A DNA stretch of 64,000 bases from Candidatus Bathyarchaeota archaeon (GTDB lineage: Archaea > Thermoproteota > Bathyarchaeia > Bathyarchaeales > Bathycorpusculaceae), in assembly GCA_026014705.1 (NCBI GenBank), contig JAOZHU010000034.1, forward strand, positions 44,081 through 108,080, read 5' to 3'. A program made the position numbers and the translations under genes. Below, piece after piece: positions 41,743 through 63,049 of the stretch. The notes under the pieces are model-generated. The model made no database searches and had not been told where the DNA came from. It was given only the letters and a program-made list of their open reading frames with translations. Position 1 is the first letter of the stretch; each line of letters begins with the position of its first letter.

Positions 41743-42235
41743 TATACTACAGTCATTTCGGGATTAAAGGGTTCTTGTCAAGGTTTATTGACTAAACAGG
41801 TCATTTCTAAGTCAAATTTTCTTGACAAACTCCGATTCAGAGCGAAAAACGGAAACTAAGCTCGGTATATTTGGAGCCTAAAAGTCAATCAATGCAGAAA
41901 TCAGTAAAGGGTATACCCCGCACAGCGCTTTCAAGGCTATATACCCTGCTAAAAGGGGAGACCGTAGAAGAAAAACCGCACAACGGCACACAACCCCACT
42001 CCTGAACACAACCCAGAAAAACGAAGCAACACGCCGCGCTACGCGCACCAAAAAAGCTAAACAAGACGCTTTCTCCTCACGTGCCCAAAAACCCCAAACA
42101 AAACACCTGAAAAACACGGCGCTTAAAGAAAAGCTTTAAACACCCCATGGGAAGCATATTTAAGCAAGAACGCAAAGAATTCATTAACAGAAAACCACGC
42201 CAAAGAAACACCAAATCAACAACGAGGAAGAAAAA
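41743..42235. other. Interval with hairpin and possible 37-residue frame
   Basis: AGGGTATA (near 41908) and TATACCCT (near 41938) form an 8-bp inverted repeat. A 37-residue frame at 41892-42005 (MQKSVKGIPRTALSRLYTLL onward) covers it, but it lacks a well-placed ribosome-binding site, so I do not call it. GCATATTTAAG near 42155-42165 is a likely TATA box for the next gene. Confidence 0.4.
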
Positions 42236-58647: not shown

Positions 58648-58803
58648 AACAGGAAAACACCCACTGCGGATGCCTCAGAAGCGGCAAACCTCTCTCTCCA
58701 TAAACTGAGAATCCGACACGACTCTGCATTTGAATTGACCCCTATAACTCGGTTAAGCAAAAACATGAGCATATTTGCAGCCTATTAGCAGTCCAATGCA
58801 GAA

Positions 58804-58840
58804 ACCTATAGGTAACAAAAGCCTTTATTTAGTTATCTAA
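58804..58840 (+). repeat. Left end (attL-like) of the integrated element
   Basis: Core ACCTATAG at 58804-58811 merges into the arm CTATAGGTAACAAAA at 58806-58820. Ten spacer bases follow, then AGTTATCTAA at 58831-58840. Mirror image of the right end. Confidence 0.8.
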
Positions 58841-58894
58841 CGTTTATTTGTACGTAATAGCTTAACACTTTCCAAAAAGGATGTGAGATAAAGC

Positions 58895-60043
58895 ATGAGC
58901 GCAAACGAGAACGAACCAATGATTTCATGGCTTAACGAGTACAGGGATGCTAAAGTTCGTTCAACGGCTGAGGGAGCATTCAAACTTTATCTGCAATGGA
59001 CAAAGAAAACGCCTAAACAACTTATAGACGAATTCGACCAAGTTAAAACAAGAAGCCAAATTCTCCAATTCCAAAACTACCTGATAAACGAATACGTTTC
59101 ACCAGCAAGAAAAGAAAAGCTGAAACCTAACTCTGTTCGTAGTATCCTCAATAAAGTACGTGCCTTCTACTCAAGCCAAAAAGAAATGGTCAGAAACTTA
59201 AAGGGAAAAGTTATAGATGTTGAAATGGCAAAAGGCGAACACGTTTTCAGCATAGACGACCTTAGAGCAATGTACGCAATTGGCGATTTGAGGGATAAAG
59301 CAATTCTGGCGACAGCTACGAGTTTAGGCTGGGAAATAAGCGCATTTATGGGTTTAGAAAAAGACTTCGTTGAAAGTTTGGTTAAACGTGCAAGAAGCCA
59401 AAATTTGGAATTCATAGCGTTTGATTGGCAACGAAAGAAATCGGGAGCTACTCAATACGGGATTCTTAACCCAATGGCGATTTTCAGCTTAGAAAACTAC
59501 TTAGCCAAATTGAACAAGGAAAACCCAAACCAAACTAAACTGTTCGACATAACAGAGGTAAGCATAAACAACATACTGAGAAAACTGGTTCAGGACAGCA
59601 ACATCGTAACTGTGGGAACAATTCGCTTTCACCTTATCCGCAAGTTCTTAATGAATGCCCTAAGCGATGCGGGGTTAAACAGCTTCGAAGTTAAATTGAT
59701 TATGGGCAAGGAAATAGGCGTATCTGACAGAACATATTTGCAAACTTTGAAGAAATCAGCTTTCGAGAAGTACAAGCAATGCTATCCGACTCACCTGAGC
59801 CTTTCGCAACATGTTAACGGTGCGGCTAAATACTCAATTCTCGTTGATTTGGTGACAAAGCATGTCCAAGCACAGCAGCATCTCGTTGATTACATGAAGC
59901 AAAACGGAATGTTGGAACATGTTCCGCAACCAATCCAAGACGAATTAAACAGCGTTGCAGAATTCGCTAAGTTGATGCAAACTAAGAACGGCAAGAAACC
60001 CGAATCTGAAAAGCCAAGAGAAGAGGATAATATTGTCGAATGA
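58895..60043 (+). CDS. Tyrosine recombinase-like integrase
   Basis: A 382-residue protein. Residues 10-110 resemble a SAM-like core-binding domain (ISWLNEYRDAKVRSTAEGAFKLYLQWT, NSVRSILNKVRAFYSSQ). The catalytic part has IRFHLIRKFLMNALSDAG, with the HxxR box near residue 248, and DRTYLQTLKKSAFEKYKQC with the candidate nucleophile Tyr near 279. The first catalytic arginine position reads SLGWEISAFMGL, with Glu instead of Arg, and the late His position has GK. The protein may use a variant active site. It ends in a charged tail overlapping a tiny frame. Confidence 0.75.
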   Translation: MSANENEPMISWLNEYRDAKVRSTAEGAFKLYLQWTKKTPKQLIDEFDQVKTRSQILQFQNYLINEYVSPARKEKLKPNSVRSILNKVRAFYSSQKEMVRNLKGKVIDVEMAKGEHVFSIDDLRAMYAIGDLRDKAILATATSLGWEISAFMGLEKDFVESLVKRARSQNLEFIAFDWQRKKSGATQYGILNPMAIFSLENYLAKLNKENPNQTKLFDITEVSINNILRKLVQDSNIVTVGTIRFHLIRKFLMNALSDAGLNSFEVKLIMGKEIGVSDRTYLQTLKKSAFEKYKQCYPTHLSLSQHVNGAAKYSILVDLVTKHVQAQQHLVDYMKQNGMLEHVPQPIQDELNSVAEFAKLMQTKNGKKPESEKPREEDNIVE

Positions 60044-60152
60044 AGAAACCAAATTACTAAAACAGATTCTTGCTGAGCTACGAGAAATCAAATCTGCAAT
60101 AAATAAAAACGCCAAATCAACGTATGATGCAATTAGGTACTTTAACCCGTAA
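60033..60152 (+). CDS. 39-residue coiled-coil-like protein overlapping the integrase end
   Basis: A TTG start at 60033 (GAGGAT upstream) gives a frame reading MSNEETKLLKQILAELREIK then SAINKNAKSTYDAIRYFNP. The heptad-like leucine pattern in the first half looks coding. It overlaps the 3' end of the integrase by 11 bases, which suggests translational coupling. Confidence 0.5.
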   Translation: MSNEETKLLKQILAELREIKSAINKNAKSTYDAIRYFNP

Positions 60153-60832
60153 TTTTCTTTTTTCTTTATTTCGATAAAGTCAACCAAATCAACATCCTAT
60201 AATTTAAAAAATTAGCCAATAACGCACGAAGCCTGAGCAGGATATATGTGGTTTTTCGTGGTTGCAGAAGGCAGGGGAGAGGTTTCAGGTTAGTTTTTCG
60301 TTTTTGCTTTGGTTATTTGTAAATAACTAAAATGTCGCTTTGTTTATCTGTTTTCTGGAAAATGTTTTTAACCATCGTTTCCGATTTATTAGTCGGGAAT
60401 AGGCGATGACAGCGGTCAAAATAGAAAAATCGGTTATAATCAAGCCCATAAAAGCTAAATCAAGATGTTTTGCGGTTAGAATTAGTTAAAACGAAGACGG
60501 CATACAGCGACATACATACGCCTTTCGGAGTCAAACATTTTCAAGGGACTTCATTTGAGACTTTATCCAAATTTTTTAAGCGCCTTTCAGTTGTTTTTAA
60601 AGAGGTCTGAGAACAATTACGTGGGAAGACTGAAAAAGAACGTACAGAATAATTATTTGTTTCGCCAGTAACCCTTTTTTCAAAATCTCCACAACATCGT
60701 TGTTTAAAATTAGATAATTCAAAAAAGTCAAAAAACAAAAAGGGGTAGGGGAGATTTGATAATTTGTTTTTCGGTCATAGCTACGAAAAATGCTTTAACT
60801 CCTAAATAATACACGTCACTATAGAAAAAGCA
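60153..60832. other. Gene-poor AT-rich part of the element
   Basis: No long frame. A possible 27-residue frame lies at 60406-60489 (MTAVKIEKSVIIKPIKAKSR onward), with weak support. AAATCTCC (near 60685) and GGAGATTT (near 60750) form an 8-bp inverted repeat about 55 bases apart, so an RNA structure is conceivable. CTATAG at 60819-60824 lies just before the nuclease gene. Confidence 0.4.
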
Positions 60833-61465
60833 ATGAAAGAGATAAAGCAAATAGACTTCACCTGTCCAAATTGCGAAAAAGAGTACATAGTATTAACTCC
60901 AATCGAAGAGATATTTTGCGGAAAAGGTGTTTGCTGTTCGTGTTGCAAGAAACAAGGCTTGCAATCTGATGAATGTAAGATGTTTCAGTTAGAGCTTAAA
61001 CGGGAATCCAATGGCACGTTTCTAAGCAGAGATGATATTAAAGGTCTCTTAATGGAGAAAGCGGTTAGCGATGCATTAACTTCTTTAAAAATACCTCACA
61101 CTCACAACCCATTTAATAATACTTACCCATGCTATCAGAATAAAAGACCTGATATTATAATTGAGAAACTTAATCTCGCCATAGAGTGCAAAAATTTAAA
61201 TCAAATTCAAATAGAGCAAAGTCTCTCTAACGCTTGGCTCGATGAAAACATAATAAGCAGACCTTACTTTAAAAATTACAAGCGTAAAATCGCATTTTTC
61301 AGCTACAAACCACGACAATCAAGTATTAAGTATCTGAATACGCATGGCTGGCGAATTTACAGTTTAGGCACACAAATTCTTACGGTAAAACAAATGAGAA
61401 AATCAATGGGCAAAATGAAACAAAGATTCTATTGGCTGAAGGTACATTTTCCTTCCCAATTGTAA
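60833..61465 (+). CDS. Zinc-finger PD-(D/E)XK nuclease-like protein
   Basis: A 210-residue element gene. The N-terminus is cysteine-rich: FTCPNCEKEY, then FCGKGVCCSCCKKQGLQSDEC, suggesting one or two zinc sites. From residue about 70, MEKAVSDALTSLKIPHTHNPF leads to KRPDIIIEKLNLAIECKNLNQ, a textbook PD-(D/E)XK core (Asp102, Glu112, Lys114 region). The rest, KIAFFSYKPRQSSIKYLNTHGWRIYSLG, fits the later strands. Base composition is AT-rich, unlike the host. A restriction-like or Holliday-junction-resolvase-like role is possible; the exact target is unknown. Confidence 0.72.
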   Translation: MKEIKQIDFTCPNCEKEYIVLTPIEEIFCGKGVCCSCCKKQGLQSDECKMFQLELKRESNGTFLSRDDIKGLLMEKAVSDALTSLKIPHTHNPFNNTYPCYQNKRPDIIIEKLNLAIECKNLNQIQIEQSLSNAWLDENIISRPYFKNYKRKIAFFSYKPRQSSIKYLNTHGWRIYSLGTQILTVKQMRKSMGKMKQRFYWLKVHFPSQL

Positions 61466-61558
61466 TATGCATGACATCCACACATCAATCAAACAAAAAA
61501 GGCGAACACCCCAGTTTTCAGGGTTAATTTATCAAATTATGTTAATTGTTATTAAATT

Positions 61559-61614
61559 CACTAATTGTCTAATTACTACTATGTTATTAACTAATTACTA
61601 ATTAACTAACTAAC
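61559..61614. repeat. Short AT-rich CTAATT repeats
   Basis: CTAATT occurs at 61561, 61569, 61591 and 61598, followed by AACTAAC repeats, within the AT-rich intergenic part of the element (61466-61828). Such arrays can be iterons or recombination accessory sites; it is otherwise gene-free. Confidence 0.5.
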
Positions 61615-61828
61615 ATTATCATATAAGGTAATGGTTGTTGCGCTAAAAGCATGGAGAAATTGACGAACCATTAAACAAATAGTGTATAATAGCATGTTGA
61701 AGTGTATGATAGGCTGAAGAGCTTGTTTGGTGAACATGCCGAATAGCAAAACCTAAAACTAACCGAAAAAGCGTGTTCTAAAGAATAGAATTAAATTAAG
61801 GTTAACATGTATATTGTATAGGGGTAAG

Positions 61829-62782
61829 ATGAAGAGAACGGCATTAGCACTAACACTCATCGTGACCGTTCTTGTTATGACGATAGTCGTTTTCTTATTT
61901 GTAGGAGTAAAGCCTAATTCATCCTCCTCCGATAACCCTGAACAGAAAACCCTGCTCGTAGAGAGTTTTAACGCCACAACTATCGGCAGTAAAGTAATTG
62001 GTGGCAATATCGTTCTTATTAACCCTACAAACAAGAGTTTTGAGAACTTAACATTAACAGTAAAAATAGACGATTCCGAACCAATAGTGCCAATTCTGCG
62101 TTTAATTAAGCCCTTAGCTACTGGAGCGACATTTAATCATTATTTAGTTGCAATAACTCAAATAAGCATCGAATCAAACCAAAATGAGACAATTCAGCTT
62201 TACCTATATAACCCAGACAAAATGGAACCACCTTTCTACGAGACAAGCGTAAACGTCCAAACTTTTAGTTCTCATGTAATCAGGTTTTACTTAACACAAA
62301 ACACCCTTGGCGACATAATAAACGGGCAACCATTCACAATTCCTCAAGAAAAGGCTTACTTACAAATCACAGGTTACAGTTCGATAGAACACGACAATGA
62401 CACATGGCATGAGATTTTCAACAGTACCAGAAATCGGTATGAATACATAAACGACAAGCCCAATTTCTACCAGCAATATCATCATTCTGCATTCTTTCCA
62501 CTCGACCCAAGCTCCTATAATTGGGCAAAATCACTAAACCAAATAGGCGAACATTACTTCAATGTAACAATATTCAATAACAATACTTTTCCAGTTGGAA
62601 AGGTAACATTGAATTTTGGAGACGGTGGTGTGGAAATGGCGTTGCAAGACAAAATTATCCAACCAAATGAAACATATGTTTTCCCAATAGCCGTGAGTGG
62701 CAAGGATTGGTCGAGCGTTGAAAATGTTAATCAACTGAGCAATTTCTTTCCAGCATATGCAAGTGGCGATTTGGTCCAATAG
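61829..62782 (+). CDS. Signal-anchored extracellular protein of the element
   Basis: A protein of about 317 residues. The N-terminus is an uncleaved-looking signal anchor (MKRTALALTLIVTVLVMTIVVFLFVG), followed by a beta-rich, Asn/Thr-rich outer domain with many potential N-glycosylation sites, and no catalytic motif. I chose ATG 61829 because AGGGGTAAG lies directly upstream; an in-frame TTG at 61814 is the alternative. It is the last gene before the right end. Surface exclusion, adhesion or defence-type roles are conceivable but unsupported. Confidence 0.7.
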   Translation: MKRTALALTLIVTVLVMTIVVFLFVGVKPNSSSSDNPEQKTLLVESFNATTIGSKVIGGNIVLINPTNKSFENLTLTVKIDDSEPIVPILRLIKPLATGATFNHYLVAITQISIESNQNETIQLYLYNPDKMEPPFYETSVNVQTFSSHVIRFYLTQNTLGDIINGQPFTIPQEKAYLQITGYSSIEHDNDTWHEIFNSTRNRYEYINDKPNFYQQYHHSAFFPLDPSSYNWAKSLNQIGEHYFNVTIFNNNTFPVGKVTLNFGDGGVEMALQDKIIQPNETYVFPIAVSGKDWSSVENVNQLSNFFPAYASGDLVQ

Positions 62783-62824
62783 CGTTTTTGCAAACGATTA
62801 AATAATTGCGTAAAATTATTTGAC

Positions 62825-62859
62825 TTAGATAACTCAAGCGAAGGTTTTGTTACCTATAG
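62825..62859 (-). repeat. Right end (attR-like) of the integrated element
   Basis: TTAGATAACT at 62825-62834, ten bases, then TTTTGTTACCTATAG at 62845-62859. Exact inverse of the left-end arms with identical spacing. The core ACCTATAG spans 62852-62859. Confidence 0.8.
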
Positions 62860-63049
62860 AGGGTCTATCCGTAACGCCTCTTCCGGAACTGTATACAAAG
62901 GAGGCTATAGATCACTCCAAACACAACAGCGCCTATTTATAGTTTAAATAAGGGGCCTATAGTTTTTTCCACGCACTAGTTTCCAGCTTCCTGCAAGGGG
63001 AAAATCTAAATGCAAGTGTGCAGCATGGTAATAGCGAGTTGGCAACAGC

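Follow-up and report, generated by a model that had tools for sequence, protein, structure and literature searches.

What is the stretch of 4,056 bp (about 4.06 kb) at positions 58804-62859 of the window, the 64-kb stretch of DNA analyzed here, and how did it come to lie where it does? Its borders are sharp, and its GC content is 36.5% overall (0.34-0.40 along it), against approximately 45-50% in the surrounding DNA. The sequence ACCTATAG occurs as a direct repeat at the two borders and, on the + strand of the window, only there (58804 and 62852). Just inside, CTATAGGTAACAAAA is found at 58806 (+) and 62845 (-) and AGTTATCTAA at 58831 (+) and 62825 (-), with no other occurrence of either in the window. 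The left end, attL (58804-58840, + strand), thus comprises the core ACCTATAG (58804-58811), the inner arm CTATAGGTAACAAAA (58806-58820), and the outer arm AGTTATCTAA (58831-58840); in the right end, attR (62825-62859, - strand), the arms are inverted and end in the core (62852-62859). Of all inverted pairs in the region, these ends form the longest (35 nt at 83% complementarity, with 3,984 nt between the two), and a perfect 15-mer inverted match accompanied by a second 10-mer at an equal offset lies far beyond chance (<1e-7 by a rough estimate). When the arm pair GGTAACAAAA-N-AGTTATCTAA was searched for throughout the 1.99-Mb genome, only these two ends were found (0 for the reversed-pattern control); the element is present as a single copy in the genome and is known from one metagenome-assembled genome (MAG). 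An earlier note on this DNA had predicted an integrated element of an archaeal host with exactly these boundaries, whose joined ends would form a perfect palindrome. The core, the arms, the GC drop, and the flanks described below bear out the boundaries, the host is archaeal, and a check of the sequence confirmed that the predicted junction, TTTTGTTACCTATAGGTAACAAAA, is a 24-bp perfect palindrome. The stretch is a real integrative element. Within it, a 30-nt segment at 60320-60349 matches the right end of the element itself at 70% and is perhaps an older end that predates the addition of the genes for the nuclease-like and surface proteins described below.

No tRNA gene was found in the 64-kb window, and Rfam gave no family at the insertion site. 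In the relatives examined, the gene for DUF2096, which is the left neighbor of the element, was not found beside the TPR gene, which is its right neighbor; the TPR gene is instead part of a conserved pair with a DNA ligase gene, without DUF2096 as a neighbor. Because gene order in this neighborhood is not conserved in the genomes compared, which include no close relative, the joined flanks were used as the search query, and unoccupied copies of the matching sequence were taken as the evidence for an empty site. The joined flanks matched, across the junction, a dispersed intergenic repeat of Bathyarchaeia of approximately 50-100 bp. One copy in the element's own genome (G000:C18:15756-15808) runs straight through the junction with 96% identity along 53 nt (E-value 6e-19), and the junction was spanned at 61 loci with unoccupied repeat copies. 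The left half of the repeat, CATATTTGCAGCCTATTAGCAGTCCAATGCAGAAACCTATAG, lies at 58770-58811 (+ strand) and ends in the shared core, and the right half, AGGGTCTATCCG...GGAGGCTATAGA, lies at 62860-62911 (+ strand). The aligned copies read CATATTTGGAGCCTAATAG-NNATNC-NATGCAGAAACCTATAGRGGGT(CTA/AGG)TC and continue into a tail that varies, and the insertion point is the CTATAG of the repeat, TGCAGAAACCTATAG^RGGGTCTA. Therefore, the empty site that the earlier note had predicted, GCAGAAACCTATAG joined to AGGGTCTATCC, does exist, and the element has ACCTATAG at both ends and joined flanks equal to unoccupied copies of its target. What had gone unnoticed is that this site is a dispersed repeat, that the host carries 27 copies of it (0 for the reversed-pattern control), and that other elements use the same point.

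The repeat core was found in 23 of the 91 genomes of the family, in up to 49 copies (control, 0 in all), and 30 of the 31 matches in named genomes were to Candidatus Bathyarchaeota MAGs. All but one of 29 repeat cores lay outside long open reading frames, whereas 77% of random positions are coding. In the host genome, the opposite end of the repeat copies bears a further site of the CTATAG type. No covarying RNA structure and no supported fold were found in the repeat, and for this reason we do not call it an RNA gene. Elsewhere in the window, a degenerate copy with three mismatches lies at 41866-41902 without an insertion (chance expectation, 0 in 100 shuffles). At three loci (L121, L130, and L132), the repeat occurs in tandem arrays of two or three copies, in which the variable hexamer is drawn from limited sequence choices.

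The only recombinase-like gene of the element (58895-60043, + strand) encodes a protein of 382 amino acids. Its AlphaFold2 model (pLDDT 84.7) has the catalytic fold of a tyrosine recombinase, and a Foldseek search with this model gave archaeal XerA (5hxy) as the best match (E-value 2e-7), followed by the Tn1549 and lambda integrases. The predicted fold, together with the catalytic lysine, HxxR motif, and tyrosine, shows that what the earlier note had described as recombinase-like is a tyrosine recombinase. Residues K182, H246, R249, K272, and Y281 are conserved without exception in 18 relatives, and a lysine stands at the position of the third histidine. These results bear on whether the locus might be a DDE/IS-type transposon, with the inverted ends as its termini and ACCTATAG as nothing more than the 8-bp duplication of a preferred target site. 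Inverted ends with an 8-bp direct repeat do have such a form, and bacterial IS elements are known to target repeats (PMC1525189); however, the sole candidate enzyme has the fold and residues of a tyrosine recombinase, and CTATAG belongs to the element's own ends and is the same in the other integrase elements at the site. We regard a transposon origin as highly improbable.

The Box I arginine is absent from the integrase, with E147 at the aligned position. Among 31 aligned integrases, the 13 with a Box I arginine never have another at K-2, counted from the catalytic lysine, whereas the 18 without it all carry R-x-K, an exchange whose apparent significance is inflated by the shared ancestry of these proteins. 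The R-x-K group includes both the integrase of this element (R180-x-K182) and the second repeat-targeting lineage described below. In IntCTnDOT-type recombinases, some members of which lack the Box I arginine, a downstream arginine functionally replaces it (PMC8138268), and from the alignment we infer that R180 substitutes for the missing residue here. Membership in the tyrosine recombinase family rests on the fold and the other residues, and published exceptions to the Box I arginine exist. The missing arginine, along with the single genomic copy, would also fit an inactive remnant, that is, an element once integrated by the same route whose recombinase is now dead. We consider this unlikely: every gene is open, the ends are intact, the core is perfectly palindromic, R-x-K is universal among the aligned integrases that lack the Box I residue, and the relocated arginine has its counterpart in IntCTnDOT. 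Because of this precedent, it is plausible that the integrase is active despite the substitution.

One copy of the repeat is broken off exactly after ACCTATAG and leads into a second lineage of tyrosine recombinases, represented by Int154 (G017:C78). Int154 and the integrase of the window match each other in BLASTP only with an E-value of 0.15 and lie on opposite sides of a branch with 100/100 support. Left junctions of the Int154 lineage read TGCAGAAACCTATAG|GGAAG in G017 and G129 and TGCAGAAACCTATAG|GGAGAG in G108, and in G102 and G049 the integrase end adjoins the other half of the repeat, meaning that the element is reversed. Two elements of this lineage are complete: one of 10.84 kb (G129:C26, 247,216-258,058) in the same orientation as the element of the window, and one of 9.58 kb (G102:C1, about 1,187,027-1,196,605) in the reverse orientation. 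When the flanks of each are joined, they align with repeats through the junction (E-values of 2e-22 and 4e-12, respectively), and further single junctions of the lineage were found at the CTATAG of the repeat. In G110, where no repeat was found, a member lies at ACCTATAG in an unrelated context, which suggests that the minimum target may be the core, not the whole repeat. In locus L198 (G108:C124, minus strand), end-like sequences at 18 and 1676 place a second CCTATAGGGAACTTAC 1.66 kb inside the first; the two are perhaps tandem elements.

In G118 (L195 and L196) and G119 (L194), related integrases bound apparently complete elements of 2.7-3.3 kb with inverted ends; apart from the integrase, the principal gene in these codes for a protein that is signal-anchored or bears a signal. 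These three, together with L191 and L192, plausibly occupy a second, CCTTATAT-type site that resembles the other end of the repeat. For integrases of the window type in G030, G099, and other genomes, the repeat was not visible at the upstream ends, so this choice of target does not extend to every member of the family. In L271 (G132:C15), a degenerate fragment of the repeat, GTTATTAGGCTCCAAATAG, is present in reverse approximately 200 bp upstream of an integrase of the window type, perhaps as another use of the repeat. Viral contigs searched with the integrase, the repeat core, and the attP gave no match.

The association between repeat and integrases could also be read in the opposite direction, with the repeat as the elements' own product, a minimal non-autonomous relative or remnant spread by the integrases, instead of a host sequence that they exploit. 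The repeat is dispersed and intergenic, its copies in the host genome have the second CTATAG-type site, and related elements occupy the similar CCTTATAT site, all of which are consistent with such an origin. However, repeats are abundant in G107, G032, and G024, genomes that gave no close match to either integrase lineage; the arms of the examined elements are unlike the repeat beyond the core; and no duplication on either side of the repeat was seen by eye. We judge this origin to be slightly less likely even than an inactive remnant. Very different elements of related archaea appear to share this repeat as a landing pad that can be reused.

The remaining gene content is as the earlier note described it: in addition to the recombinase, the element encodes a 39-amino acid frame, a 210-amino acid protein with zinc-binding-type cysteines and a PD-(D/E)XK-like pattern, and a signal-anchored protein of 317-322 amino acids. 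The 39-amino acid frame (60033-60152, + strand) has a TTG start, overlaps the end of the integrase gene, and has a weak match to a PHROG of unknown function (E-value 0.0013); it is possibly a small accessory protein. The 210-amino acid protein (60833-61465, + strand) contains CxxC pairs and D107...E118-x-K120, and on this residue pattern it is a putative Zn-ribbon PD-(D/E)XK nuclease; the structure prediction reached a pLDDT of only 47.7 and did not confirm the fold, and searches gave neither a PADLOC match nor a convincing PDB relative. A homologue that is 80-81% identical is encoded in G106, which belongs to another genus, in a different element. There (L261, G106:C64, 8308-10600), approximately 930 bp of the nuclease region recur at about 80% identity beside a different integrase, and a transposase gene splits two stretches of DNA common with the element of the window. 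The signal-anchored protein (61829-62782, + strand; about 317 amino acids) is of host type: it is a member, at 36-48% identity, of a family of Bathyarchaeia surface proteins that occur in chromosomal clusters. Because the recombinase, nuclease, and surface genes differ in history, the element is modular, and we infer that the latter two are exchangeable cargo. Searches of the element's proteins against Pfam, PHROGs, and NCBIfam recognized no conjugation gene (relaxase, coupling ATPase, or type IV secretion) and no DDE or Cas1-type transposase. Identity as an integrative conjugative element was therefore rejected, and the resemblance to such elements drawn in the earlier note has no support beyond the integrase. 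A casposon was rejected for want of a Cas1-type match, and an IS or DDE transposon was rejected on gene content, the recombinase being of the tyrosine fold.

Taken together, the locus is very probably a 4.06-kb integrative element of Bathyarchaeia that was inserted by its own tyrosine recombinase at CTATAG within an intergenic repeat dispersed through the host genome. The integrase would pair attL with attR and excise the element as a circle, the junction of which would be the 24-bp palindromic attP, and the circle could then reinsert into any of dozens of equivalent repeat copies. Because the core and arms are symmetrical, the orientation would not be fixed by the site, which agrees with the two orientations observed in the Int154 lineage. 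To move between cells, the element would depend on a helper or on DNA uptake, and its benefit would be a safe intergenic site that is never exhausted. A broader reading, which we offer tentatively and hold at somewhat less than even chances, is that the repeat, conserved in Bathyarchaeia, provides docking points across the whole genome, neutral as to orientation, to several unrelated tyrosine-recombinase elements of approximately 4-11 kb. These would form a class of archaeal elements whose integrases use a relocated catalytic arginine and which resemble transposons in their many equivalent sites and free orientation while recombining in the site-specific manner of phages.

Where the sites of archaeal integrases have been mapped, most are a single tRNA gene or the end of a single gene. 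The integrase of this element shares its catalytic fold with archaeal Xer and SSV-type integrases; however, characterized archaeal integrases act mostly at tRNA genes and in some cases at sites between or within other genes (PMC8371274), whereas the target here is a repeat, and the integrase gene is not split by integration. The nearest class is that of the cryptic integrated elements (CIE) of Thaumarchaeota, which are likewise small, with a tyrosine recombinase, few recognizable genes, and short direct repeats, and some of which occupy intergenic sites; the multicopy dispersed target, the use by more than one integrase lineage, and the palindromic junction set the present element apart from CIE in those parts of their description consulted (PMC6563490). 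The comparison with IntCTnDOT-type enzymes, which are carried by bacterial conjugative elements, covered the arginine exchange: some of them lack the Box I residue and have a downstream arginine in its role (PMC8138268), a role proposed here for R180. The integrase of the window differs in having a lysine for the third histidine, and we do not assign it to their subgroup. IS elements that target bacterial REP sequences also use a dispersed extragenic repeat as their insertion site (PMC1525189), but they do so with transposases, and bacterial REPs are palindromic, whereas the Bathyarchaeia repeat has no supported fold. In the part of the literature covered, we found no report of archaeal tyrosine-recombinase elements that target a dispersed repeat, and it is the multicopy repeat target that distinguishes this element from known integrative elements.

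With their short, symmetrical sites, the integrases are candidates for use as tools, and the fixed junction provides a simple probe, in the form of orphan repeat halves, for mobile elements in uncultured Bathyarchaeia. For the elements, a multicopy intergenic attB offers a large, inexhaustible supply of harmless sites and allows amplification; for the host, att sites at many positions mean that recombination between copies could rearrange the chromosome.
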